The notes beneath the pieces were generated by a model that worked only from the letters and a program-made list of their open reading frames with translations, ran no database searches and was not told the origin of the DNA. A DNA stretch of 35,340 bases, taken from positions 1 through 35,340 of the forward strand of contig JAMLHF010000043.1 in NCBI GenBank assembly GCA_023957275.1, given 5' to 3'. Position numbers and translations under genes: made by a program. This stretch comes from Lentimicrobium sp. GTDB lineage: Bacteria > Bacteroidota > Bacteroidia > Bacteroidales > Lentimicrobiaceae. Numbering within the stretch: the stretch's first letter is position 1; each line of letters starts with the position of its first letter. Positions 3,301 to 18,154 of this stretch are shown here, piece after piece.

Positions 3301-3957
3301 TTAAAATTTCATCTCCGGCACATCCCCCTCCACAATCAGCCGGGCTTCTGTAGCTGCTATAATTTCATCCACACTTACGCCGGGCGCTCGTTCGAGCAGT
3401 TTAAAGCCCTGGCCGGTAACTTCAATCACCGCCAGATCGCTTACGATTTTCTTCACACAGGCAACACCTGTCAGGGGCAGGGTACACTCCCTGAGCAGTT
3501 TCGACTGTCCGTCTTTGCTGCAGTGCTGCATGGCCACCACAATGTTTCTGGCTGAAGCCACCAGATCCATGGCGCCGCCCATGCCCTTCACCATTTTTCC
3601 CGGAATTTTCCATGAGGAAATATCTCCTTTTTCGCTGACTTCAAACGCACCCAGAACGGTCAGGTCGACGTGCCCGCCCCTTATCATGGCAAAGCTGGTG
3701 GATGAATCGAAAAACGATCCGCCCGGGAGCACCGTTACGGTTTGCTTGCCTGCATTGATCAGGTCGGGATCCGCCTGCCCTTTTTCGGGGAAAGGGCCCA
3801 TGCCGAGCATCCCGTTTTCTGACTGCAGCACCACCTCAATGCCTTCAGGCACATAGTTGGCTACCAGGGTAGGAATGCCAATTCCGAGATTTACATAATA
3901 CCCGTTTTTTAATTCCTGTGCAATGCGTTGTGCAATCTGTTCTTTTGAAAGTGCCAT
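3301..3957 (-). CDS. scoB: 3-oxoacid CoA-transferase subunit B
   Basis: Beta subunit (218 aa, normal length) of the two-subunit succinyl-CoA:3-oxoacid (acetoacetate) CoA-transferase. The family's catalytic glutamate is in SENG at residues 46-49 (E47), which forms the glutamyl-CoA thioester. The glycine-rich GIGIPT (25-30) and the GGAMDL stretch are typical. It is the last gene of the leucine operon. With subunit A just upstream it would activate the acetoacetate released by HMG-CoA lyase to acetoacetyl-CoA, using succinyl-CoA or another acyl-CoA as donor. The acetate-dependent atoDA type cannot be excluded by eye; the gene context favours acetoacetate as substrate. A gap of about 330 bp filled with repeats separates it from subunit A, unusual for two subunits of one enzyme. 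Confidence 0.93.
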   Translation of the reverse strand: MALSKEQIAQRIAQELKNGYYVNLGIGIPTLVANYVPEGIEVVLQSENGMLGMGPFPEKGQADPDLINAGKQTVTVLPGGSFFDSSTSFAMIRGGHVDLTVLGAFEVSEKGDISSWKIPGKMVKGMGGAMDLVASARNIVVAMQHCSKDGQSKLLRECTLPLTGVACVKKIVSDLAVIEVTGQGFKLLERAPGVSVDEIIAATEARLIVEGDVPEMKF

Positions 3958-4022
3958 TTTCTGTAAACTTTTTTATATTGGAGGCCGGAAATCAGGTTGA
4001 GGTTGTGCTTCGACTGGTCTCG

Positions 4023-4040
4023 TTCCGATAGCGATCGGAA
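4023..4040. repeat. hairpin of a dispersed palindromic repeat (GGTCTCG...CGAGC family)
   Basis: TTCCGAT (4023-4029) and ATCGGAA (4034-4040) form a 7-bp stem with a 4-nt loop, set within a longer imperfect dyad that begins near TGGTCTCG (4015) and ends near GCTCGACCACC (4043). The same outer words recur at 6502-6527, so this is one copy of a dispersed palindromic repeat. Confidence 0.55.
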
Positions 4041-4124
4041 TCGCTCGACCACCGTCGCTCAGCAACCAAAGTCAAGGTTAAGCAGATTTGATTAATCTAT
4101 AAGGAATGCGTATTCAAAAAATTC

Positions 4125-4290
4125 ATTTTCGGAATTTGGGAATTATTTTCCCCCTGTGATCATTTCCTTTGGAACGAAACCCCAAATCTCTCGTTATCCG
4201 GCAATCGACGTCTCCCGAGACAAGCGCAATCCGCAACCGAACGAAGTGAGCTCACCGAAGGTAATCCGAATTCCGAAATCCACAATCCCT
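4125..4290. repeat. gene-less heptamer-arm element between scoA and scoB
   Basis: The left side holds ATTTTCGG and AATTTGGG words (4125-4144). The right side holds two modules (X at 4185-4232, Y at 4226-4268) followed by four heptamers AATCCGA, ATTCCGA, AATCCAC, AATCCCT (4263-4290), the last overlapping the scoA stop codon (4289-4291). The same modules occur around the four-helix-bundle gene at 10540-10896, but in the order Y then X. I read this as a copy of that element that lacks or lost its gene. Confidence 0.65.
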
Positions 4291-4978
4291 ATCTTTCCGT
4301 CAACCTTTCAATCCGTTTTTCGTAGTCTTTCCCCTTAAAAATCCTTTGAACGAAGATTCCCGGGGTGTGTATCTGATTGGGATCGAGTTCTCCGGCAGGG
4401 ACCAGTTCCTCCACCTCGGCAATGGTAATTTTACCGGCCATTGCCATGGCCTGGTTGAAGTTGTTGGCAGTATTCCGGTAGATCAGGTTCCCGTGGGTAT
4501 CGCCTTTCCATGCTTTCACGATGGCGAAATCGGCAGTCAGGGCGTGTTCAAGCAGATGCGGTTTACCGTTGAATACCCGCACTTCCTTGCCTTCCGCCAC
4601 TTCGGTGCCGTAACCGGCCGGGACAAAGAATGCCGGGATTCCGGCGCCACCGGCACGGCAGCGTTCGGCAAGCGTACCCTGGGGGATAAGCTCCACTTCG
4701 AGCTCTCCGCTTAGCAACTGACGTTCAAATTCTTCATTTTCGCCAACATAGGAAGAGATCATCTTACGGATCTGCCCCTTTTTAAGCAGAAGTCCGAGTC
4801 CGAATTCGTCCACACCGGCATTGTTTGAAATGCAGGTCAGTTCCTTTAACCCGCTTTCAGCCAGGGCAGAAATACTGTTCTCCGGGATTCCGCTTAATCC
4901 GAACCCTCCGACCATCAGCGTCATTCCGTCGTGTATCCCCTCAATGGCTTCCCGGGCATTGGAAACAACTTTATTCAT
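4289..4978 (-). CDS. scoA: 3-oxoacid CoA-transferase subunit A
   Basis: Alpha subunit (229 aa) of the same CoA-transferase. It carries the family signature [10 protein letters not shown] (residues 24-33), the ISSYVGEN stretch and the conserved [18 protein letters not shown] run. The start is ATG at 4978, with HMG-CoA lyase ending 64 bp upstream. In the pathway it pairs with the gene at 3301-3957. The stop codon TAG (4289-4291) overlaps the last heptamer of a repeat array, so the repeat has inserted exactly at the coding boundary without changing the conserved body of the protein. A 12-bp perfect palindrome (TGTTAATTAACA, 4988-4999) sits just before the start; its role is unknown. Confidence 0.94.
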
Positions 4979-5042
4979 AAAGACACATGTTAATTAACAG
5001 ATTAACACCTGTATGCCGTTTTGGTTCTATGGAAGGCAAAAT

Positions 5043-5894
5043 TCAGTAACCGGTGGTGATGGCCTGAATGATTTTTTCCCGGTCGATGGTATGGCTGGCC
5101 TGTTTCCCTTCAAGGAAATCCAAAAGGTTCAGGGTATTGAGGTTACCCACCAGTTCATACCCTGTCATAGGGCATCCGCCGATGCCGTTGATCACCCCTT
5201 CGAACCAGCGGCATCCGGCATCCCAGGCGGTATGCAGTTTGGCTTCCCACTCTCCGGGGCGGGTGTGGATATGTAATCCGAATTCAAAACCCGGAAAATA
5301 TTCAATCAACCCGGCGTAAACCTCACCGATCTGCGATGCCGTGGCAATGCCAATCGTATCGGCCAGGGTAATGGTGCTGATGCCTTTACCGGCCAGCATT
5401 TCAATATGTTTTTTAAGCAGGTCAAGACTCCACGCTTCCCCGTATGGGTTACCATAGGCCATACTCATAAAGACGCGCAGTTCACAACCATGATCCTTAC
5501 ATAGCGATAAAAGGCCGTCGATGGTCTCGTTTGCCCCGGAAAAGCCGGTATTAATGTTTTTTCTGAGGAATGTTTCCGAGACGGAATACGGAAATCCGAG
5601 CAGATCAACCTTTGGCTGAGCAACGGCATCCCTGCCGCCGCGCATGTTCCCGACAATGGCCATTAATTTCGACCGGCTTCCGGTTTTATCCACCAGCCTG
5701 AGCACTTCATCCTGACCGGCCATTTGCGGCACCGCTTTCGGCGACACGAAACTCCCGAAGTCAATCACATCAAATCCCACTTTTAACAGGGCATTGATGT
5801 ATGCCGCCCGTTTCTCCGGAGCAATCACGTAAGGCAACCCCTGCCATGCGTCGCGGGGGGACTCGGTGAGTTTGATGAGTTTATCTGGTTTCAT
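5043..5894 (-). CDS. hydroxymethylglutaryl-CoA lyase, divergent form
   Basis: Cleaves 3-hydroxy-3-methylglutaryl-CoA to acetyl-CoA and acetoacetate, the step after methylglutaconyl-CoA hydratase. The HMGL-like TIM-barrel motifs are present: PRDAWQG (residues 13-19, compare RDGLQ), LHIHTR (207-212, metal-binding histidines H208 and H210) and GGCP (239-242, C241 as the loop cysteine) followed by GN (250-251). Two parts differ from the textbook enzyme: HDTYGQ is replaced by HTRPGE, and the segment after GGCP is MTGYELV rather than YAPGAS. I chose ATG at 5894 (283 aa, close to the usual 290-300). A longer frame starts at 6002, but its extra 36 codons translate the repeat at 5908-5982. Position in the operon supports the role; another HMGL-like lyase is the alternative. 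Confidence 0.85.
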   Translation of the reverse strand: MKPDKLIKLTESPRDAWQGLPYVIAPEKRAAYINALLKVGFDVIDFGSFVSPKAVPQMAGQDEVLRLVDKTGSRSKLMAIVGNMRGGRDAVAQPKVDLLGFPYSVSETFLRKNINTGFSGANETIDGLLSLCKDHGCELRVFMSMAYGNPYGEAWSLDLLKKHIEMLAGKGISTITLADTIGIATASQIGEVYAGLIEYFPGFEFGLHIHTRPGEWEAKLHTAWDAGCRWFEGVINGIGGCPMTGYELVGNLNTLNLLDFLEGKQASHTIDREKIIQAITTGY

Positions 5895-6013
5895 AGTTTT
5901 TTGAGTTGGGACGAGGGACGCCCCTTCGGCTCCCCTTCGACTCCGCTCAGGGTGCACGCTTAGGGTCCGGGCCGAGGGACGATGTGCTTTTTTAAGAAAC
6001 ACGTCCGATCAGA

Positions 6014-6379
6014 TTAATGTTTTGACTTGTCCTCCAGTGTTTGTATCGCTTTAGTTTCCATTGAAATAATTTCATCCAGCTTCAGAATTCTGGAATTGAT
6101 TATTTCCGGGGTTAACAGTTTGTTACATTTTCGGTACCACCCTTTTGACTCCCTTGCAGAACCACGGCTGATCCGGAGAAATTGCGGGTATTCCTTTCCA
6201 AAACCTCTTCCATATCCTTCTTCAATATTTGAACTGATTGAGCCTACGGACCTGACCATTTGCTTTGCGATTTCTTTTCCTCTGAAATCCAGCATCAGGA
6301 TTTCAGTATCAGTCCACATCTCATCCCATAGCTCCAGGGATAGCTTGTAGAATCTGATATCATCCAACCGATCAATCAT
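6014..6379 (-). CDS. four helix bundle protein (S23/IVP-like family)
   Basis: A 121-residue protein of the family named after the ORF in 23S rRNA intervening sequences. The signature is clear: SVGSISSNIEEGYGR (residues 44-58), then EYPQFLRISRGSARE (63-77). The fold is a four-helix bundle that forms pentamers in known structures; the related Avd protein works with retroelement reverse transcriptases, but no reverse transcriptase is present here. The function of free-standing members is unknown. It is in the same direction as the leucine operon, between the acyl-CoA dehydrogenase and HMG-CoA lyase genes, and is flanked by inverted repeats, so it is more likely element cargo than a leucine pathway component. 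Confidence 0.9.
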   Translation of the reverse strand: MIDRLDDIRFYKLSLELWDEMWTDTEILMLDFRGKEIAKQMVRSVGSISSNIEEGYGRGFGKEYPQFLRISRGSARESKGWYRKCNKLLTPEIINSRILKLDEIISMETKAIQTLEDKSKH

Positions 6380-6432
6380 AAAAGGAAATTTTAATTGAAT
6401 TAATTATTTATACTCCCTCGTCCCTTTTTTCC

Positions 6433-6583
6433 GTCCCTCGTCCCGGTCCCTGAGCGAAGTCGAAGGGGCGTCCCTCGTCCCGGTTTTGTCTCCTCCCAAA
6501 TGGTGGTCTCGGCTCCGCTCGACCACCACCGCTAGTCCCTCGTCCCGGTCCCTGAGCGCAGCCGAAGGGGCGTCCCTCGTCCC
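6433..6583. repeat. duplicated 49-bp repeat with a hairpin between the copies
   Basis: A 49-bp block (GTCCCTCGTCCC, the CCCTGAGCG word, then CGTCCCTCGTCCC) occurs at 6433-6481 and again at 6535-6583 with two differences. Between them GGTGGTC (6502-6508) and GACCACC (6521-6527) form a 7-bp stem related to the palindrome at 4015-4053. The second copy ends 4 bp from the stop codon of the acyl-CoA dehydrogenase gene (6588). Confidence 0.75.
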
Positions 6584-6587
6584 TCCT

Positions 6588-7733
6588 TCAGCACCCGATA
6601 TACCTCGAAATCACCAGCCGCTGAATCTCCGAGGTGCCTTCACCTATCTGAAGCAGGCGCTGGTCGCGGTAGAAGCGTTCGATTTCGTAATCTTTCATCA
6701 GACCGTAGCCTCCGTGAACCTGCACGGCTTCGTCGGCCACCTCTCTGGCGATTTCGGAGCAATAAAGTTTTGCCATGGCCGATTCCATGGCGAAAGGCTG
6801 GTTGGTATCCTTCAGCCAGCAGGCTTTGTAGAGCAGGTTTCGGGCAAGTTCTATTTTCATCGCCATATCGGCCAGTTTAAAGGCGATGGCCTGGAATTTT
6901 GAGATGGGTTGTCCGAACTGTTTTCGTTCTTTGGCATAGTTCAGGGCAAGTTCGTAAGCTCCCTGCGCGCAGCCGAGTCCCATGGCTGCAATGGAGAGTC
7001 TGCCCGAATCGAGCGTTGAAAGCATGATTTTGGAGCCTTCACCTACTTTTCCCAGCAGATTGGATTCCGGAACGCGGCAGTCGTCAAAGAAGAGCTGCGA
7101 GGTATCAGAGGCCCTCCACATCATTTTGCCGTGCATGGTTTGCCGGGTGAATCCGGGAGTGTCTTTGTCGACCAGTATGGTGGTAAACTCTTTCTTCCCC
7201 TGTTTTTCGCCGGTTACGGCCTGTACCGTCGCGCCCATGGAGTTATCGGCTGAGCCGTTGGTGATGAATATTTTGGAGCCGTTGATGACCCATTCCCCGT
7301 TTTCGAGAGTGGCGCGGGTTTTTGAACCGCGGGAGTCGGATCCGGCATCCGGTTCGGTAAGTCCGAAGGCCCATAGGGCCTCGCCCGTACAGAGCATGGG
7401 CAGGTATTTCATTTTCTGCTCCTCGCTGCCATAATAGTAAAGGGGACCGATTCCCAGGGAATTATGGGCTGCCAGCGTAGCAGCCTGTGAGCCGTCGACG
7501 CGTGCAATCTCCTCAACGGCAATAATGTAAGCAAGGTTGTCCATGCCCTGACCGCCGTATTTCTCCGGAAGGTAAATGCCGAAAAGGCCAAGTTCACCCA
7601 TTTTGCGGGTAAGTTCGGGGGAGAATGTCTCCTTTTCGTCGAGCTCACGTGCCAGCGGCCTGATTTCCCGCTCTGCAAACTGCCGGACCGTCTCCCTGAT
7701 CATCCGGTGTTCTTCACTAAGATTGTAGTCCAT
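6588..7733 (-). CDS. acyl-CoA dehydrogenase, probable isovaleryl-CoA dehydrogenase role
   Basis: FAD enzyme of 381 residues, the normal family length. Both family signatures are visible: LTEPDAGSDSRG (about 125-136) and the QFGQPISKFQ region. In context it should oxidise isovaleryl-CoA to 3-methylcrotonyl-CoA, the substrate of the carboxylase encoded on either side. One detail is notable: the C-terminal motif is GEGTSEIQR with E365, the catalytic base position of short- and medium-chain (butyryl-type) dehydrogenases, whereas characterised isovaleryl-CoA dehydrogenases carry their base in an earlier helix and have a small residue here. So the specificity could be isovaleryl, isobutyryl/2-methylbutyryl or butyryl-CoA; the operon favours isovaleryl. 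An electron-transfer flavoprotein is needed but is not encoded here. Confidence 0.9.
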   Translation of the reverse strand: MDYNLSEEHRMIRETVRQFAEREIRPLARELDEKETFSPELTRKMGELGLFGIYLPEKYGGQGMDNLAYIIAVEEIARVDGSQAATLAAHNSLGIGPLYYYGSEEQKMKYLPMLCTGEALWAFGLTEPDAGSDSRGSKTRATLENGEWVINGSKIFITNGSADNSMGATVQAVTGEKQGKKEFTTILVDKDTPGFTRQTMHGKMMWRASDTSQLFFDDCRVPESNLLGKVGEGSKIMLSTLDSGRLSIAAMGLGCAQGAYELALNYAKERKQFGQPISKFQAIAFKLADMAMKIELARNLLYKACWLKDTNQPFAMESAMAKLYCSEIAREVADEAVQVHGGYGLMKDYEIERFYRDQRLLQIGEGTSEIQRLVISRYIGC

Positions 7734-7802
7734 ATCGTACTGTTTTGATTTTCTGAGGTGCCTCGCGCCAAGACGCTTAGTTCATTAAATTTAAGTTTTT
7801 TC

Positions 7803-8446
7803 TCACGCAACGACGCAAGGACGCAATGGTTATTTGATTTTCTTTCGGGTCTCACGCGAATCTGCCCAACGGCAGATGGGGTCACATTGAAGCAATGATT
7901 AATTGATTTTCCCGTGCTTTTAATGCACTAAGGTAATTGTTTATTAAAGATGATTTGCAATTCTTTGAAACCCATCCTTTAACAAACTTGCGTTGAAAAT
8001 AACCAGTAATCCTAATTTTAATCCGGTAATTTTCAGATAAGTCAGTACCTGCTTTTGATGAACCGGATTAATTTCACCGATAGATTTCAATTCAACAATA
8101 ACTTTATTTTCAATAATAACATCAGCCCGAAAACCCGTTTCCAGTTTCAAACTCTCCCATACTACAGGAATTGATTTTTGTCTTTCATAAGACAAATCCA
8201 ATTTATTTAATTCATAAGTCAGGATTTCTTCGTAAACAGATTCTAAAAGGCCAGGTCCTAAAACTTTATGAATCCTAAAACAAATATCCCAGATAATTTA
8301 GCAATTTCGTTTTCGGTCATAATAAATGATTTTATTGTTTTTGCTAGCGTACCTCCTGTGATATTTATTTCATTATTTGTTGATGTGACAAATCATCAGT
8401 TTTTCAATACTGAAAAACAACGTTGCGTCTTAGCGTCCTTGCGTGA
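7803..8446. mobile_element. octamer-arm element carrying a decayed GxxExxY gene
   Basis: The left arm (7803-7828) reads TCACGCAACGACGCAAGG then ACGCAATG. The right arm (8421-8446) is its reverse complement with about five differences (TCACGCAAGGACGCTAAG then ACGCAACG when reversed). Both are three copies of an 8-nt word of the form CGCAAnGA. A further partial word lies at 7761-7780, and ATCTGCC/GGCAGAT (7860-7866, 7871-7877) forms a hairpin inside the element. It fills the gap between the acyl-CoA dehydrogenase start and the carboxylase alpha stop; the right arm ends 4 bp from that stop codon (8451). Confidence 0.6.
7944..8320 (-). pseudogene. GxxExxY protein gene broken by a one-base frameshift
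   Basis: Translating from ATG at 8320 gives MTENEIAKLSG and then runs to a stop. Shifting frame near 8290-8297 gives WDICFRIHKVLGPGLLESVYEEILTYEL in pieces that match the family: the naming motif G-L-L-E-S-V-Y, then the nuclease-like GFRADVI and VELKS (D and E-x-K), and the usual NPVHQKQVLTYLK. The total of 377 nt is one short of a 125-codon gene plus stop, so one base was lost. The part after the shift has no ATG before an in-frame stop; a TTG at 8201 would give only an 85-residue fragment without the GxxExxY motif. It is related to the intact gene at 17224-17637. A sequencing or assembly error would be the alternative to true decay. Confidence 0.8.
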
Positions 8447-8450
8447 TTCT

Positions 8451-10433
8451 TTAAGACGTTGTGTCCAGATTCACCAAAAGTGCGGAGCCGTCCACGGTGT
8501 CGCCTTCCTTTACATACAGGCGTTTTATCAAGCCGTCGGCCGGACTCAGTACGTTGTTTTCCATCTTCATGGCTTCAACCACCACCAAAACCTGCCCTTT
8601 TTGTACTTTCTCACCCTCCGAAACATTTACCTTCATCACTTTCCCTGGCATGGGTGAGACAATTTTACTCAGGTCGGTCTTTAGTTCTCCCGCATTGAAG
8701 ACATCCACATGTTCGGGTCGGGCCATGTCAGCCCTTTCAAACTGAAACTGAAATCCGCAGATATTCACCGTGATCACGCCCATCTCATCCGCGCATGCAT
8801 GAAAGCTGTAGCTTAATCCATCCAGAATCAGATAGGATGCTGAATCGTCTTCGCGCAGCAACGCCTCCGTTAAGGCATTGTTCTCACGGATCTTTATCTT
8901 TCCCGGGGTTATGGAAATGAAATTCAGCTGGTGCTCCTGCCTGTCGAGCCGCAGTTTTGGTTCCGGGAGGTTTCGCCAGTAGCCTATAGTCTGCCAGACG
9001 CTGTCCTTCTTTTCATCTTTGATTTTAAGGCTCTCCAGTAATCCCGCCAGCAGTGGAATCCGCGGATCGACCGAAGCCTTCAGCGTCTTTACATGTGCGA
9101 TCAGATGATCGAGTTCGTCGTCGATGTACCGGGTGGTGATGGCATTGCGGATAAACGAATCGTGCTGTACCAGTCCGCTAAGAAAAGGAATATTGGTTTG
9201 TATGCCCTGAACGACGAACTGGCTCAGTGCATGGATCATCAGGTCGCGGGCATCTTCCCGTGTTTCGCCCCGGGTTATGAGTTTGCCGATCATGGGGTCG
9301 AAGGCGCTGTGAATTACCCCCTTGCCTTTGATTTCCATGCTGTCGACCCTTATATGCTGACCGGCCGGCTCACGATACAGATGAATTTTGCCGGGTGAGG
9401 GCATAAAGTTGTTAAACGGATCCTCCGCGTAAATCCTGCATTCAATGGCATGTCCTTTCTGCACCAGGCCAGACTGCTTAAACCTGAGTTTCTCTCCGTT
9501 GGCGATGCGGATCTGCTCTTCTACCAGGTCAACGCCGGTAGTCAGTTCAGTTACCGGATGCTCCACCTGTATGCGGGTGTTCATCTCCAGGAAGTAATAA
9601 TTCAGGTCTTTATCCACCAGAAATTCAATGGTTCCTGCGCTGTAATAGCCTATGGATGAAGCGAGCAGCACGGCCGATTCCCCCATCTTTTTCCTGACTC
9701 CGGGGGTGAGGGCCGGGGAGGGGGCTTCCTCTATGATCTTCTGATGCCGGCGCTGTGCGGAGCATTCACGTTCAAACAAATGCACCATATTGCCGTGCTT
9801 GTCGCCGAGTACCTGAAACTCGATGTGCCGCGGACCTTCGATGAACTGTTCGATATACACCGTGCCATCGCCGAAGTAATTCAATGCTTCGCGCGAGGTA
9901 TTTTCAAGTGCCTGCCCGAGTTCTCCGGGCGTACGGACGATGCGCATGCCCTTTCCGCCTCCGCCGGCTGCCGCTTTGATAAGCATGGGAAACCCGACCT
10001 TATCGTAATTTGCCAGCAAATAATCCGGGTCACCGGTAACCCCCGTGGTAACCGGAACCCCCAGTTTAACAGCTGCTTCGCGGGCGGCAATTTTATTCCC
10101 CATCGCCCTGACCGAAGCTGCCGAAGGCCCGACAAAGGTGATGCCTTCGCGTTCGCAGGCTTCTGAGAACAGGGGATTTTCGGAGAGAAACCCGTATCCG
10201 GGATGTATGGCGTTTGCCCCCGTTTTCTTCGCAGCGGCAATGACGGCTTCAATATTCAGGTAGGTTTCCGACAGATTTTCTCCGGGAAGCAAAACCGCCT
10301 CACCGGCCTGCAGCACATGCTGCGCGTCCCTGTCGTGATGTGAATACACAGCCACCACCGGAATGCTCATACGGCGGGCGGTTTTCTGGATGCGGAGGGC
10401 GATTTCGCCGCGGTTGGCTATAAGGAGTTTCAT
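8451..10433 (-). CDS. methylcrotonyl-CoA carboxylase alpha subunit (biotin carboxylase plus biotin carrier domain)
   Basis: 660 residues, the size of MCC alpha. The biotin carboxylase part opens with LLIANRGEIALR (3-14), then HPGYGFLSENP (77-87), the ATP-grasp loop AAAGGGGKGM (154-163) and EMNTRIQVEHPVTE (283-296). The C-terminal biotinyl domain carries EAMKMEN with the lysine to be biotinylated at K623. It carboxylates biotin with bicarbonate and ATP, and passes CO2 to the beta subunit encoded at 12136-13743 to make 3-methylglutaconyl-CoA. Propionyl- or acetyl-CoA carboxylase alpha subunits look similar, but the neighbours (MCC-type beta, hydratase, HMG-CoA lyase) settle the role. A repeat arm starts within about 2-5 bp of its ATG and another ends 4 bp from its stop, so both ends of the gene touch inserted elements. 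Confidence 0.94.
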   Translation of the reverse strand: MKLLIANRGEIALRIQKTARRMSIPVVAVYSHHDRDAQHVLQAGEAVLLPGENLSETYLNIEAVIAAAKKTGANAIHPGYGFLSENPLFSEACEREGITFVGPSAASVRAMGNKIAAREAAVKLGVPVTTGVTGDPDYLLANYDKVGFPMLIKAAAGGGGKGMRIVRTPGELGQALENTSREALNYFGDGTVYIEQFIEGPRHIEFQVLGDKHGNMVHLFERECSAQRRHQKIIEEAPSPALTPGVRKKMGESAVLLASSIGYYSAGTIEFLVDKDLNYYFLEMNTRIQVEHPVTELTTGVDLVEEQIRIANGEKLRFKQSGLVQKGHAIECRIYAEDPFNNFMPSPGKIHLYREPAGQHIRVDSMEIKGKGVIHSAFDPMIGKLITRGETREDARDLMIHALSQFVVQGIQTNIPFLSGLVQHDSFIRNAITTRYIDDELDHLIAHVKTLKASVDPRIPLLAGLLESLKIKDEKKDSVWQTIGYWRNLPEPKLRLDRQEHQLNFISITPGKIKIRENNALTEALLREDDSASYLILDGLSYSFHACADEMGVITVNICGFQFQFERADMARPEHVDVFNAGELKTDLSKIVSPMPGKVMKVNVSEGEKVQKGQVLVVVEAMKMENNVLSPADGLIKRLYVKEGDTVDGSALLVNLDTTS

Positions 10434-10434
10434 G

Positions 10435-11171
10435 GAGATTTCGGATTTTGGAATGCGGATTTCGGATTGCTTGCCATTTTGCTGGTTTTGCCTTTGTAAG
10501 AAGTTTAAAGCAAAATCCCGGGTTTTTGTTTAATCACCACTATCTTAATGTTTTTCTTGAAGTTTTGATTGATGCCACCGTAATTGCAATTATTTCAGAG
10601 ACCTCCTTCAGTAATGGCCCAACTTCTTCTTCACGGGCAAGATTTATTGCTTTTACCAATTCAAGCCAAAGTTCTGTTTCATCTGCTTCTTCTTCAACAA
10701 TTCCCATCTTGGCAATAAAATCTCTGGCTGATTTAGCCCTGCATGCTGCCCGGTAATTTGCTGCCATTGAAGTTGCAGATTTAATGATTTGATATGCGAT
10801 CACTTTGCTTTCCTGACTAATCGGGAATCCTTTTGTAAGTCTGATTACTGCAATTGCCAGGTTCATCAGTCTTTTTTGCATTTCATACTTATCCATGACT
10901 ATTGTGTTTTAAAATGTTTAGAAAATGATTTGGTTTTCTGTATAAAAATTATTTCACAATTTGTCTTAAGATCGCCGTCCAGGTCACAATTTGAAATTTG
11001 CAATCCCTGGTTTTCCCGTGATGAGAAGCTTTGTATGGCAGGCACAATCCGCAATCCGCAACCGAACGAAAGTGGGCTCACCTTAGGCAATCCGCAATCT
11101 CTCGTTAATCGGCTATCACCGTCTCACGTGACAAGCGCAATCCACAATCCACAATCCGCAATCCGCAATCA
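10435..11171. mobile_element. heptamer-arm element carrying a second four-helix-bundle gene
   Basis: The left arm is four heptamers ATTTCGG, ATTTTGG, AATGCGG, ATTTCGG plus a partial one (10438-10469), beginning 1-5 bp from the MCC alpha start. The right arm is five exact-length heptamers GCAATCC, ACAATCC, ACAATCC, GCAATCC, GCAATCA (11137-11171), which are the left words reversed (ATTGCGG). The last heptamer contains the hydratase stop codon (11169-11171). Inside the right arm are module Y (11051-11094) and module X (11096-11143), shared with 4185-4268. The gene at 10540-10896 is the only cargo. This is one of the clearest examples of the shared plan in this window. Confidence 0.65.
10540..10896 (-). 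CDS. four helix bundle protein (S23/IVP-like family), second subtype
   Basis: 118 residues, intact from ATG at 10896. It belongs to the subtype whose core is TSMAANYRAACRAKS (residues 42-56) followed by DFIAKMGIVEEEADET (59-74) and LWLELV. It differs clearly from the family member at 6014-6379 and is not a recent copy of it. Its biochemical role is unknown; the conserved NYRAACRA segment is typical of stand-alone members. It is transcribed with the leucine operon between the hydratase and MCC alpha genes. It sits inside the inverted heptamer arms at 10438-10469 and 11137-11171, which suggests it travels with them. Confidence 0.92.
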   Translation of the reverse strand: MDKYEMQKRLMNLAIAVIRLTKGFPISQESKVIAYQIIKSATSMAANYRAACRAKSARDFIAKMGIVEEEADETELWLELVKAINLAREEEVGPLLKEVSEIIAITVASIKTSRKTLR

Positions 11172-11957
11172 GAAATTCCATCTAGCTTTTCTTTTCTCCA
11201 GAAACGCCGCCATCCCTTCCTGGCCTTCTTCCGAGGCGCGGATTTCGGCGATGATGCGGGCGGTAAAGCTGAGCGCCTCTTCCAGGTCTATTTTGTTGCA
11301 CACCTCATCGATCAGGTTTTTGCAGTGCGTCATGGCTTTGGGGCCGCTGCTCATCAGCAGGGCGATCAGGTCATTCAGATAATTTTCCAGCGCATTTGCC
11401 GGGAGCGATTTGTTGACCAGCCTGAAGTGTTCGGCCTCTTTCCCCTTGATGCGCTTTCCGGTAAGCATAAGCTCACGTGCCCCGTATTCTCCCACGCGTT
11501 TGATCACATAGGGCGAAATACAGGCGGGTACGATGCCTATTTTAACTTCGGAAAGCGAAAAAACCGTTTCATCATCGCAAATGGCCATATCGCAGGCAGC
11601 AAGCAGTCCGTTGGCTCCGCCTATGGCCGCTCCGTGTACCACGGCAATGGTGGGTTTCGGACAGTTGTAGATGGCGTAGAAACACTCCGAAAGCTGCAGA
11701 CTCTCTTTGTAATTCTGTTCGTAGCTGTACTTCGCCACATCGCGCATCCAGTTGAGGTCGGCCCCGGCACAGAAAGACTTCCCGCGCCCGCGGAGCAGCA
11801 CTACCCGGATGTCGTCCATCTTACCGATTTCCGTGAAGATCTCGAGCACTTCCGAAATCATTACCTCGTTAAAGGCATTGTGTATCTGCGGGCGATTCAG
11901 CCAGACGGTTGCTGTCTGATCCGAGATTTGGATTTCCAGGGTAGCATATGCTTTCAT
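11169..11957 (-). CDS. methylglutaconyl-CoA hydratase (enoyl-CoA hydratase/isomerase family)
   Basis: Adds water to 3-methylglutaconyl-CoA to give HMG-CoA. Crotonase-family features are the oxyanion-hole segments CAGADLNWM (63-71) and HGAAIGGANG (108-117), and the SEVKIGIVPACISPYV stretch (136-151) with the conserved acidic residue at E137. The CAGADLxWM form and the ISPYV element are what I expect of the leucine-pathway hydratase rather than a general enoyl-CoA hydratase. I chose ATG at 11957 (262 aa); a start at 11993 would add 12 polar residues (MSEHQNQQHKLN) not expected in the family. The C-terminus ends normally at KARWNF, and the stop TGA lies within the last heptamer of a repeat array. 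Confidence 0.9.
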   Translation of the reverse strand: MKAYATLEIQISDQTATVWLNRPQIHNAFNEVMISEVLEIFTEIGKMDDIRVVLLRGRGKSFCAGADLNWMRDVAKYSYEQNYKESLQLSECFYAIYNCPKPTIAVVHGAAIGGANGLLAACDMAICDDETVFSLSEVKIGIVPACISPYVIKRVGEYGARELMLTGKRIKGKEAEHFRLVNKSLPANALENYLNDLIALLMSSGPKAMTHCKNLIDEVCNKIDLEEALSFTARIIAEIRASEEGQEGMAAFLEKRKARWNF

Positions 11958-11996
11958 ATTTAATTTATGTTGTTGGTTTTGATGTTCTGACATGCC

Positions 11997-12135
11997 TCAC
12001 GCAAAGACGCTATGACGCAACGATATTTTTTGAATTCAGATGCCGGGAATCGGAGAATTTCTCGTCCCTCGTCCCGGACCCTGAGCGTGAACCCTGAGCA
12101 TAGCCGAAGGGGAGCCGAAGGGCCGTCCCTCGCCC
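11997..12135. repeat. composite gene-less repeat block between hydratase and MCC beta
   Basis: Two families lie side by side. CTCACGCAAAGACGCTATG then ACGCAACG (11997-12023) is an octamer arm like those at 7803 and 8421. From 12061, TCGTCCCTCGTCCC, the word CCCTGAGC in two degenerate copies, GCCGAAGGGG and a final GTCCCTCGCCCC (to 12136) belong to the family at 5908-6583. The block ends directly on the MCC beta stop codon TAG (12136-12138). No gene lies inside it. It may be the remains of two nested insertions. Confidence 0.65.
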
Positions 12136-13743
12136 CTACATCCGGAACACCCCGTACTTCGTCTCCTCCCACAGCTTATTCATCGATGCAGAAATGCCCA
12201 TGGCGATGATTTTCCGGGTATCCACCGGGTCAATAATCCCGTCGTCCCACAGCCGGGCCGTGCTGTAGTAGGCGGAGCCTTCCTCCTCATATTTTTTCAG
12301 GATGGATTGCCGGAGGGCTTCCTTTTCGGCTTCGGGCAGGGTTTTGCCCCGGGCTTTGAGTTGCTCTTCCTTTACGGTGGTAAGCACTCCGGCAGCCTGT
12401 TCGCCGCCCATGACCGATATTTTGGCGTTGGGCCACATAAACAACAGCCGGGGTTCATAGGCACGGCCCGCCATGGCGTAATTTCCGGCCCCGAACGAAC
12501 CGCCGAATACCACCGTGAACTTGGGAACACGGGCATTGGCGACGGCATGAACCAGTTTGGCTCCGTCGCGGGCAATTCCCCGGCGTTCATAATCCCGTCC
12601 CACAATAAAGCCGGTGATGTTTTGCAGGAAAAGTACGGGGACCTTCCGGGAGGTACAGAGTTCGATAAAGTGGGCGCCTTTCAGGGCGGTTTCGCCGAAA
12701 AGCACGCCGTTGTTGGCCAGTATGCCCACCGGAAATCCCATGATGTGCGCAAACCCCGTGGTAAGGGTAGGGGCATAGCGGGCTTTGAACTCATGAAAAC
12801 GGCTGCCGTCAACCATGCGGGCGATGATTTCTTTCGAGTCAACCGGTTTGCGAAGGTCAAGGGGAGCAATACCGTAGAGCTCTTCCGGGTTGTAGTAAGG
12901 TTCTTCAATGGGCTGGATATCCAGCGGCTGACGGGCGGCAGGTTTTAGTGTTCTGAAAATATCGCGGCAGATGCGGATGGCATGCTGATCGTTCTCGGCC
13001 ATATGATCGGCCACCCCCGAAATGGAGGTATGCACGTCGGCGCCCCCCAGCTCCTCGGCGGTGACTTCTTCGCCGGTTGCGGCCTTTACCAGGGGCGGGC
13101 CGCCGATAAAAATGGTTCCCTGGTTGCGCACAATGATGGTTTCATCGCTCATGGCCGGCACGTAGGCGCCACCGGCGGTGCAACTGCCCATCACGATCGC
13201 AATCTGGGGGATCCCTTCGGCCGACATGCGCGCCTGGTTGAAGAAAAAGCGCCCGAAATCGTATTTATCCGGAAAAACCTTTGCCTGTTCGGGAAGAAAA
13301 ACCCCGCCCGAATCCACCATATACACGCAGGGCAGGTGGTTTTCCATGGCAATTTCCTGGGCACGCACGTGCTTTTTGATGGTTTCCTGCACATAGGTCC
13401 CCCCTTTTACGGTGGCATCGTTGGCCACGATCATGGTTTCACGGCCGTGGATTACACCGATACCGGTAATGATTCCGGCCGACGGGAACTCGTTGTTGTG
13501 AATGCCGAAAGCCGCCAGGGTTGACAATTCGAGGAAGGGCGTGTTGGGGTCAACAAGCAGGTCGATGCGCTCGCGGGCAAGCAGTTTGCCGCGTTCCTTG
13601 TGTTTCTTCACGGCCTGTTCGGGCGCTCCGTGAATGGCATCGGCCATGCGCTGCCTGTATTGCCCCAGCAACTGCTGAAAGGCTTCAGAATTCGAAAGGA
13701 ATTCCGCCGATTTTGTGTCAATTTTCGATTCGATGCGGTACAA
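12136..13743 (-). CDS. methylcrotonyl-CoA carboxylase beta subunit (carboxyltransferase)
   Basis: 535 residues, the MCC beta length. It transfers CO2 from biotin on the alpha subunit to 3-methylcrotonyl-CoA. Recognisable segments are [12 protein letters not shown] (142-153), [16 protein letters not shown] (186-201), QNITGFIVG (374-382) and [18 protein letters not shown] (414-431) followed by [20 protein letters not shown]. The last is the MCC beta form and separates it from propionyl-CoA carboxylase beta. It is the first gene of the operon. The best start is an unusual TTG at 13743, which gives the usual N-terminus ([11 protein letters not shown]). No ATG occurs upstream before an in-frame TAA, and the first internal ATG is about 33 codons in. 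The stop codon is flush with a repeat block. Confidence 0.95.
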
Positions 13744-16857: not shown

Positions 16858-16990
16858 ACCATAACAGTGACAATAAGACACAATAGATTGTTCTCAGGGA
16901 ATTCAGCATTCAATGATTCAAAACTATGAAATCTCATCAACTTTAAATTAGTGCATGAACCTAATGTGTTCTACTGTGCCTAATGTGGTT
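16858..16990. repeat. gene-less repeat unit 0 of the 17-kb array (degenerate)
   Basis: A degenerate left arm (16858-16886, ending GACACAATAG) and a good right arm (16961-16990, CTAATGTGTTCTACTGTGCC then TAATGTGGTT) enclose about 75 bp of sequence only loosely like the other units. It is probably the oldest or most diverged copy. Confidence 0.55.
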
Positions 16991-17032
16991 CTTTTATTTA
17001 ATAGATTTGGAGAAATATGGCAAGTTTCTTTT

Positions 17033-17663
17033 CACCACAATAGACACAATAGGACACAATAGATCAGGTTAGAAGGCCGGAATGAACATAATCAAAATGA
17101 CTCAATTCTTTAAAATATCATAAACCAATGTTAATACCAAAACCTAATATGTTCTACTCCCGACTACTTTGCCGGGAATAGGGCACAATAGAGCACAATG
17201 AAAAATATTTTAACAGATACAAGATGACACAAAAGTACCTGAATGAGTTAACTCATACCATAATTGGAGCTGCAATTGAGGTTCATAAAGAAATCGGGCC
17301 TGGATTGCTGGAGAGTGTATATGAAAAATGTCTGGCACATATGCTCAAAGAAAAAGGTCTTCATCTGGTAACGCAGCAAAGGGTCCCTCTTATATTCAGG
17401 GGACTGCATCTCGATTGTGATCTTCGCTTTGATCTGATGGTTGAAGATTCCATCATTGTTGAAATAAAAGCTGTTGATGGATTATTGCCAATCCATGAAG
17501 CTCAGTTGCTTACCTACTTAAAGTTGCTTGCAAAGCCCAAAGGAATTCTGATTAATTTTAATTGTATGAATATCTTTAAAGAAGGACAAAAAACCATGGT
17601 TACAGAGCTTTATGCATCATTGCCCAAAGGATACTAATGTGCTCTACTATGCCTAATGTGGTT
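17033..17663 (+). mobile_element. repeat-arm element carrying an intact GxxExxY gene
   Basis: The left arm (17033-17062) is CACCACAATAGACACAATAG plus GACACAATAG, three 8-10 nt words. The right arm (17634-17663) is CTAATGTGCTCTACTATGCC plus TAATGTGGTT, an inverted version of the left. Between lie about 80 bp shared with the gene-less units, a hairpin (CTACTCCCG 17154-17162 with CGGGAATAG 17173-17181, one mismatch), and the gene. The 15-mer CTAATATGTTCTACT at 17144 and CTAATGTGCTCTACT at 17634 are direct repeats exactly 490 bp apart. Deleting that interval gives the neighbouring gene-less units. The right arm overlaps the gene's own stop codon. Confidence 0.65.
17224..17637 (+). CDS. GxxExxY protein (PD-(D/E)XK-like)
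   Basis: 137 residues, intact. The naming motif is G27-L-L-E30-S-V-Y33. Further on, D70 (LRFDLM), E80 and K82 (VEIKAV) match a PD-(D/E)XK nuclease core, and PIHEAQLLTYLKLL (89-102) is typical. Family members are small, widespread and of unknown function; nuclease activity is inferred from the fold family only. The start is ATG at 17224, preceded by an A-rich leader. The TAA stop (17635-17637) is formed by the first bases of the right repeat arm (aCTAATGTG), so gene and arm are physically merged. It is related to, but clearly different from, the frameshifted gene at 7944-8320, so the two were acquired separately or long ago. Confidence 0.92.
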   Translation: MTQKYLNELTHTIIGAAIEVHKEIGPGLLESVYEKCLAHMLKEKGLHLVTQQRVPLIFRGLHLDCDLRFDLMVEDSIIVEIKAVDGLLPIHEAQLLTYLKLLAKPKGILINFNCMNIFKEGQKTMVTELYASLPKGY

Positions 17664-17701
17664 CTTTTCGCTAATTTGGTTGAAGGGCGGGAAGTATTTT
17701 T

Positions 17702-17841
17702 CACCACAATAGACACAGTAGGACACAATAGTTCAAGTTAAAGGGCCGGAATGAATTTTTTAAAATGACTCAATCCTTTAAAATAGCATCAACCAATGTT
17801 AATACTAAAACCTAATGTGCTCTACTGTGCCTAATGTGGTT
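17702..17841. repeat. gene-less repeat unit 2 of the 17-kb array
   Basis: Left arm 17702-17731, right arm 17812-17841, interior of about 80 bp. The interior matches that of the gene-bearing unit (shared words GGCCGGAATGAA, AAATGACTCAAT and CCAATGTTAATAC) but passes straight into the right arm with no gene. The 38-nt linker to the next unit is nearly identical to the one before it. Confidence 0.85.
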
Positions 17842-17879
17842 CTTTTCGATAATTTGGTTGAAGGGCGGGAAGTATTTTT

Positions 17880-18020
17880 CACCACAATAGACACAGTAGG
17901 ACACAATAGTTCAAGTTAAAGGGCCGGAATGAATTTATTTAAAATGACTCAATCCTTTAAAATAGCATCAACCAATGTTAATACTAAAACCTATTGTGCT
18001 CTACTGTGCCTAATGTGGTT
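17880..18020. repeat. gene-less repeat unit 3 of the 17-kb array
   Basis: Left arm 17880-17909, right arm 17991-18020. It is an almost exact copy of unit 2, offset by 178-179 bp, so the pair arose by recent tandem duplication. The array ends here; the 130 bp up to the next gene at 18155 contain no further arm. Confidence 0.85.
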
Positions 18021-18154
18021 ATTTCTTTATTAAGCAGAAGCACCCTTTTCATAAATCTCATTTAGTTGTCATCTTTTTTATCTGAACTTTGCACCTGAGT
18101 TTGGAATGGAGTAACTTTAAACTCTGGTAATCGGGATTATACCAACAAATAGTC

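Follow-up and report, generated by a model that had tools for sequence, protein, structure and literature searches.

A leucine operon on contig JAMLHF010000043.1 of Lentimicrobium sp., within a stretch of 35,340 nucleotides (nt; positions 1 to 35,340, called here the window), carries between its protein genes small cassettes that we read as mobile elements resembling the intervening sequences (IVSs) of 23S rRNA, tolerated by means of an RNA stem formed between the stop codon of one host gene and the start codon of the next. We give this reading a probability of about 0.57. As we picture it, a cassette is a small gene of the S23/IVP or GxxExxY family placed between two inverted arms, each of them a tandem array of a word of about 7 nt, and the whole would be seated directly after the upstream stop codon in the direction of the operon. 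Comparison among genomes bears out this anatomy, together with the variable presence of the cassettes, their replacement by others at the same site, purifying selection on the S23 protein, concerted change of the two arms and a link between word and protein lineage.

According to its open reading frames (ORFs) and to family profile searches, the operon is of the leucine/isovalerate type and runs on the minus strand from 13743 down to 3301, and all of its features given below lie on that strand. The S23a cassette fills the hydratase/MCC alpha junction (10434-11171). Its 5' arm is made of GGATTGC words (about 11043-11171, the hydratase stop codon included) and its 3' arm of CAATCCG/AAATCCG words (about 10436-10468) adjoining the MCC alpha ATG; a period of 7 was found at 10437-10468 and 11138-11170, and the arm score is 19.0. 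Between the arms, the open S23a frame (10540-10896) encodes a four helix bundle protein of 118 aa that matches PF05635 (E = 5.6e-18), TIGR02436 (E = 8e-26) and PDB entry 2RLD (E = 4.7e-14). The S23b cassette lies at the acyl-CoA dehydrogenase/HMG-CoA lyase junction (5895-6587), with a 5' arm of GGGACGA words (about 6427-6583), a 3' arm (about 5908-5982), the inverted-repeat pairs I2, I4, I5, I7 and I10 and an arm score of 24.0. Its open gene (6014-6379) also encodes a four helix bundle protein, of 121 aa, matching PF05635 (E = 7.5e-16), TIGR02436 (E = 2.7e-19) and PDB entry 2GSC (E = 7.7e-4). The PF05635 scores of the two genes were 58.7 and 65.5 bits, the curated cut-off being 33.8, and both also exceed the TIGR02436 cut-off. 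The third cassette, at the MCC alpha/acyl-CoA dehydrogenase junction (7734-8450; arm score 16.5), has a 5' arm TCACGCAAGGACGCTAAGACGCAA (within 8413-8446), a 3' arm with TTGCGTCCTTGCGTCGTTGCGTGA (within about 7802-7835) and a gene of the GxxExxY family (PD-(D/E)XK, PF13366/TIGR04256; 7944-8300). This gene is broken, as its family match (7959-8300) is interrupted by one in-frame TAA; the open part (7944-8201) still matches PF13366/TIGR04256 in family searches. A preliminary description of this DNA had placed a small gene in the operon's direction at three junctions, which stands for two intact S23 genes and one GxxExxY gene, the break in the latter having been missed. The MCC beta/hydratase and scoA/scoB junctions are, as a correction to that account, gene-free word mosaics: at the former (11996-12136) GGGACGA words, flush with the MCC beta stop, are followed by AAGACGC words, and the latter (4035-4288) contains families D4, D9, D12, D18 and D20. 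An Rfam scan of the window gave no family at its gathering score.

The word blocks had been said to touch or approach host start and stop codons, and the distances quoted held when they were measured again. The MCC beta gene (12136-13743) has its stop codon flush with a word, and that of the hydratase gene (11169-11957) lies inside a CAATCAG heptamer. Four nt separate the stop of MCC alpha (8451-10433) from a word, and a few nt its start; the acyl-CoA dehydrogenase stop (gene at 6588-7733) is also 4 nt from the nearest word. The ATG of HMG-CoA lyase (5892-5894; gene at 5043-5894, taken as 5043-5897 in the family searches) is 13 nt from a word at 5908, and the stop codon (4289-4291) of scoA (4289-4978) touches an ACAATCC word. 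The last gene is scoB (3301-3957). All these host genes were identified by ORF and family.

Relatives support the earlier view of the cassettes as elements inserted at gene boundaries, since they have empty junctions and the cassettes vary in presence and lineage. We compared 19 genomes of one genus, that of the window included, and took operon stretches from 16 of the others (loci, genomes and contigs are labelled L, G and C). In the two same-genus outgroups readable over all of this stretch (L033 and L034, from genomes G018 and G005; MCC beta 81% identical), three junctions are short and empty, measuring 51/28, 122/41 and 139/63 nt. At hydratase/MCC alpha, S23 is present in 13 of 15 genomes, window included; this count takes in L027, whose contig ends inside an S23 gene that holds a stop, and leaves out L031, without a hydratase match, and L032, which ends after MCC beta. 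S23 occupies the acyl-CoA dehydrogenase/HMG-CoA lyase junction in 10 of 12 genomes and the MCC beta/hydratase junction in 8 of 15, the window (gene-free there) being among the 15, and GxxExxY occupies the MCC alpha/acyl-CoA dehydrogenase junction in 8 of 13. The occupant also changes. At hydratase/MCC alpha, S23a with GGATTGC-type words is found in five genomes and another S23 lineage with AATTTCT-type words in eight, six of which were compared directly and two assigned by BLAST identity and sequence. The S23 proteins of the window and L020 at this junction are 27% identical whereas the host proteins are 94-99% identical, and the corresponding values for L024 and L025 are 29% and 84-97%. Two S23s alternate at acyl-CoA dehydrogenase/HMG-CoA lyase, S23b with GGGACGA words in five genomes and a different one with GACAAGG words in five others. 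The 3' arm of L028 at this junction has about five copies, each with an ATG-led stretch resembling the start of the downstream gene. In L035 (G013), MCC beta and MCC alpha each match as two pieces in different frames (1040-2636 and 4643-6599), by assembly error or decay.

A second junction, flanked by genes that we take to be heterodisulfide-reductase-like, shows the pattern again. Three of 18 genomes have an S23 there, of two unrelated lineages; three have, by eye, apparent 3'-arm words alone and no gene; and 12 have no cassette, the spacer measuring 36-126 nt in 11 of them and 188 nt, with other words, in L223. In G001 the cassette begins at the stop codon and the apparent pre-start spacer of the empty L210 is retained beyond it. 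Inspection by eye of L207 against L210, the single comparison with a cleanly empty relative, revealed no target duplication. The junction of locus L110 was excluded because its upstream gene was found in only 1 of the 19 genomes.

The original observation is real, is not local and extends beyond one operon. Two sets of S23 genes were surveyed. Set 1 came from the genus, a class sample of 149 genomes and regional sequences, and 156 of its 163 distinct S23 genes were kept (seven had flanks under 150 nt); set 2, from named genomes, comprised 73 of 80 S23 loci, the remaining seven lacking a stop or having flanks that were too short. Arms were scored as local complementarity between flanks of up to 400 nt, with the 99th percentile of shuffles as threshold, and neighbour genes were called by a simple longest-ORF rule. 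In set 1 inverted arms flank 93 of 156 S23 genes, against 1.3% with swapped flanks and 16/107 and 18/105 for other genes of the same loci. In set 2 they flank 49 of 73 (swapped flanks, 6.3%), including loci of metagenome-assembled genomes labelled Gemmatimonadetes, Clostridia, Lambdaproteobacteria and Planctomycetaceae, although such labels can be wrong. At the protein level, arms not being part of the count, the S23 family matched in 122 of the 149 class genomes and in 120 above the cut-off. For GxxExxY genes, inverted arms were found in 27 of 38 (swapped pairs, 4.2%). The window has a further GxxExxY example outside the operon, on the plus strand (16940-18025; arm score 20.0); its open gene (17224-17637) is surrounded by hairpin repeats of ACAATAG words with a period of about 9-10, not 7, and a 178-bp unit is present in 2.2 tandem copies at 17634-18024.

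The S23 arms are heptameric: identity at lag 7 is 0.59 versus 0.27 in the more distant flank, and 7 is the period that fits best in 65 of 90 arms of set 1 and in 41 of 48 of set 2. Over 142 armed loci, G outnumbers C in the 5' arm of 122, and C outnumbers G in that of 12. Of the S23 genes, 134 of 141 share their direction with the upstream neighbour, 125 of 140 with the downstream one and 121 of 139 with both (p = 2.7e-8 relative to the 0.66 of S23-free triplets); in the S23-free background 77% of 345 pairs and 66% of 225 triplets are codirectional. The median distance from the upstream stop to the beginning of the 5' arm is 3 nt in set 1 and 1.5 nt in the named set, and 58 of 102 loci have this arm within the first tenth of the free spacer. 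The repeats are therefore not scattered relative to coding ends, and the analogy with IVSs drawn in the preliminary description holds beyond the S23 gene itself, in the inverted arms, the tandem heptamers and the direction shared with the neighbours.

The words of the two arms change together. In S23 pairs with 35-70% identity, complementarity is about 20 within a locus versus 9.5-10.8 between loci, and it is higher within the locus in 92-100% of pairs; thus the words change, but in both arms at once. Alignment of whole arms tracked protein similarity weakly (Mantel rho 0.138, permutation maximum 0.120), and whole-arm sharing in pairs with at least 40% identity (0.042) was inside the permutation range (maximum 0.053). 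This signal is weak because the words diverge fast, and it becomes clear with 4-nt cores repeated at lag 7. Over all armed loci, with same-context pairs removed, core sharing climbs from 0.14 where protein identity is under 20% to 0.72 where it is over 60% (76 pairs), and the core follows protein lineage with a Mantel rho of 0.18 (permutation maximum 0.06), of which a part may be common descent since related proteins tend to come from related genomes. The S23a relatives on plasmids of Planktothrix, Gloeocapsa, Nostoc and Chlorohelix (about 44-51% identity) have words that share the GATT core of the window; such armed relatives on cyanobacterial and Chloroflexota plasmids made up four of the five loci read, from eight records matched, and the Bernardetia locus showed no arms above threshold. 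The GATT core was predicted beforehand and 395 phylum genomes were then searched. Among 29 new S23a-relative loci 23 were armed, and GATT recurred at lag 7 in 12 of these 23, as against 4 among 138 armed loci from other lineages (p = 4e-9); of the seven 4-nt cores tabulated GATT was the sole predicted one, the other six carrying no prediction. The plasmid cassettes L317 (1239-2030), L318 (1489-1904) and L319 (1327-1999) have arms adjoining stop and start, and they are flanked by annotated drmD and pglX genes or by genes for DUF1156 and Swt1-HEPN, the latter pair presumably having a role in defence. The ratio of nonsynonymous to synonymous substitution rates (dN/dS) of S23 had a median of 0.08 over 57 pairs, armless S23 genes among them, and none exceeded 1, which indicates that the S23 proteins are under purifying selection.

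We propose that the insertion is tolerated because an RNA stem folds the cassette out of the way between the upstream stop codon and the next start codon. Pairing of the arms in the operon transcript would turn the cassette into a side stem, with the upstream stop and the downstream start about 20 nt apart, so that the operon would come to no harm. As in rRNA IVSs, this stem may be cut by RNase III, and the S23 protein may recognize the word of its cassette, in RNA or in DNA, and serve the spread or maintenance of the cassette. Of this picture we infer the bridge in RNA, the cleavage by RNase III and the mode of movement. In folding predictions, the S23a and S23b junction RNAs were each more stable than all of 20 shuffled versions (z = -2.30 and -7.22, respectively), and in both folds the element is closed by its arms close to the base. 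Of the 121 armed junctions 55 were folded, and the exterior path from stop to start in the predicted folds was 20 nt in the real sequences versus 56 nt in shuffled ones, and shorter in 51 of the 55; as these loci were chosen for having arms the test is partly circular, a point against us, and it therefore gives the size of the would-be effect and not selection for it.

A number of further observations weigh against the proposal. Pairing of the arms, cutting and expression of the cassettes are putative. The surveys took best-scoring matches and related genomes, so that their counts are not independent; 63 of the 156 S23 genes of set 1 had no arms above threshold, and direct repeats exceeded it in 15 of 156 S23 loci of set 1, in 11 of 73 of set 2 and in 13 of 38 GxxExxY loci. 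Armless S23 genes were codirectional with both neighbours in 55 of 62 cases, against 78 of 91 for armed ones, and direction therefore goes with the gene and not only with the arms. The distance of arms to coding ends, a check suggested in the preliminary description, is strongly fixed at the upstream stop but less exact at the downstream start, the 3' side falling in the first tenth of the spacer before the start in 28 of 81 loci; in addition, part of the positional exactness must arise because operon spacers are short (in the two outgroups without cassettes they measure 28-139 nt). In S23 pairs of 70-96% identity the arms matched no better within than between loci, because the words are still shared. 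Neither a transposase nor a target duplication nor a donor copy came to light for the cassettes. Among the matches of S23 proteins there were no transposase families, and the family matches of the three small window genes included no Y1 (HUH) transposase, the rest of the genome not having been searched for it; a phage as vehicle found no support either, one S23 query against 50,697 phage records giving no match. The S23 genes of L121 and L122 (contigs C2 of G001 and C60 of G000) are conserved and have no arms (scores 8-9), with neighbours that we take to be dehydrogenase-like and DUF1015-like genes; they resemble an ordinary gene and are possibly domesticated. Word arrays without a gene are common in the genome of the window, where GGGACGAGGGACG occurs 56 times and the same word read backwards 0 times, an excess beyond chance. 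In the 12 gene-free stretches read, the spacers are mosaics of several word families, and none of the five S23 matches of this genome is on the contigs that carry them. Relics or non-autonomous copies are the best reading of these arrays. Among the components of the mosaics (L305-L316) are 20-nt units, for example GCGTCCCTCGTCCCTTTTAA, and words, for example CTTCGACTCCGCTCAGGG, which is also found in the window. Finally, the S23 protein of the Coxiella IVS was reported as apparently not made in vivo, its frame decaying, in the available text of PMC4990558.

Could the cassettes be mobile elements at the level of DNA, with RNA pairing as a by-product? The arms would then be terminal inverted repeats or single-stranded-DNA hairpins, recognized by S23 or a host enzyme during movement in the manner of repetitive extragenic palindromic (REP) or IS200-like elements, and selection plus promoter capture would account for position and direction in operons. 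Inverted arms with lineage-linked word cores agree with this, as do the replaced and empty junctions, the likeness of gene-free copies to non-autonomous elements, the match of the GxxExxY version to the PD-(D/E)XK family and a direction preference that is present also in armless S23 genes. However, so constant a direction of the upstream gene is unexpected for a DNA transposon with neutral orientation, the S23 matches contain no transposase family and the sole clean empty comparison lacks a visible duplication. We consider this alternative unlikely, although far from negligible. Still less probable, in our opinion, is that the cassettes are host regulatory modules kept because they are useful, in which S23 would bind the arms of its own transcript and set the expression ratio of the flanking genes. 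The hydratase/MCC alpha junction is filled in all 13 non-outgroup genomes read despite the swapped lineages, and the low dN/dS speaks in favour of a function; yet the host operons are unrelated, those with drmD/pglX and DUF1156/HEPN on plasmids included, the outgroups manage without a cassette and gene-less remnants persist at the heterodisulfide-reductase-like junction. As for plain heptamer microsatellites produced by slippage in spacers, with S23 genes nearby by accident, gene-free arrays are indeed common and heptamer arrays are known in bacteria (PMC4679880), but this explanation, which we find hardly credible, is already contradicted by the predominance of inverted over direct arms (93 versus 15 of 156), by the matched arm pairs inside each locus and by a word core that tracks protein lineage. 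An IVS-like cassette bridged in RNA remains our preferred reading, and the preliminary interpretation, which had speculated on a role at the RNA level, for instance in transcript excision or shielding, is as a whole partly supported.

As described, the 23S rRNA IVSs of Coxiella and Leptospira have the same S23 gene and terminal inverted repeats that form a long stem. In Coxiella, tandem GACAGAT heptamers precede the S23 frame and an RNase III site is located at the first repeat, according to the available text of PMC4990558; the decay reported there for the frame contrasts with the purifying selection on S23 here. The two S23 cassettes of the window have the S23/IVP protein and, in predicted folds, the terminal stem, but they are located between protein genes and not inside 23S rRNA, and cassettes of this kind also differ in their many word families, same-junction replacement and gene-free relatives. 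A scan of 40 S23 loci found no rRNA, and two tRNAs in L073 only. With respect to known heptamer repeats, the intergenic 7-nt arrays are alike, whereas direct arrays without an enclosed gene are not the pattern of S23 loci, where 93 of 156 are inverted around the gene (gene-free arrays also exist). The short tandemly repeated repetitive (STRR) sequences of cyanobacteria are comparable intergenic heptamer arrays. MacGregor described TAACTGA heptamers of Beggiatoaceae, Cyanobacteria and Bacteroidetes that are intergenic and often near a start codon, some relatives having repeat-free spacers (PMC4679880); these are direct repeats of one word, with no associated gene mentioned in the available text, whereas here paired inverted arrays enclose a gene. 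Insertions in the rRNA of Candidate Phyla Radiation (CPR) bacteria include S23 frames, and forms with and without an ORF occur at one site; they are described from rRNA only, and the ORFs with known domains are mostly homing endonucleases (PMC11270868, available text). Genes annotated 23S_rRNA_IVP have been noted in cas loci, for example between cmr3 and cmr2, that is, between two operon genes as here; they are listed as CRISPR-Cas-associated and arms go unmentioned in the text available (PMC3936711). PF05635 and the Avd protein of diversity-generating retroelements are described as homologous in the accessible part of PMC10053308. Those retroelements have a reverse transcriptase beside the Avd gene, whereas none was found on the window contig (C84), the sole RVT_1 match found in the genome being on contig C83. 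Need for a resident reverse transcriptase is not supported, as RVT_1 is present in 48 of the 149 class genomes versus S23 in 122, and G077, with 23 S23 matches, is outside those 48.

A literature search, mostly without subscription papers, found no description of S23 genes between heptamer arms in protein operons, and the available texts do not bring the separate facts on S23 genes, rRNA insertions and intergenic heptamers together. More tentatively, at somewhat less than even odds, we suggest one broad class across phyla, in which a very small four-helix protein would travel with a 7-nt word of its own, as a hairpin cassette that slips in between operon stop and start codons and bridges them in RNA. 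The rRNA IVSs would be the special case of this class in rRNA and the heptamer repeats of many bacteria its relics; the joint rewriting of the two arms, in which a 4-nt core of the word is kept by the protein, would imply a process linked to the protein that homogenizes them. The function of S23/IVP is given as unknown in the available text of PMC4990558 and PMC11270868, and heptamer repeats are described without a cause in that of PMC4679880. The present data tie S23 proteins and heptamer repeats to one cassette anatomy, and the cassettes allow a direct test of what S23 binds and of how an insertion of about 500 nt sits in an operon without evident harm. It also follows as a caution that S23 genes inside cas, DISARM-type or metabolic operons need not belong to those systems.

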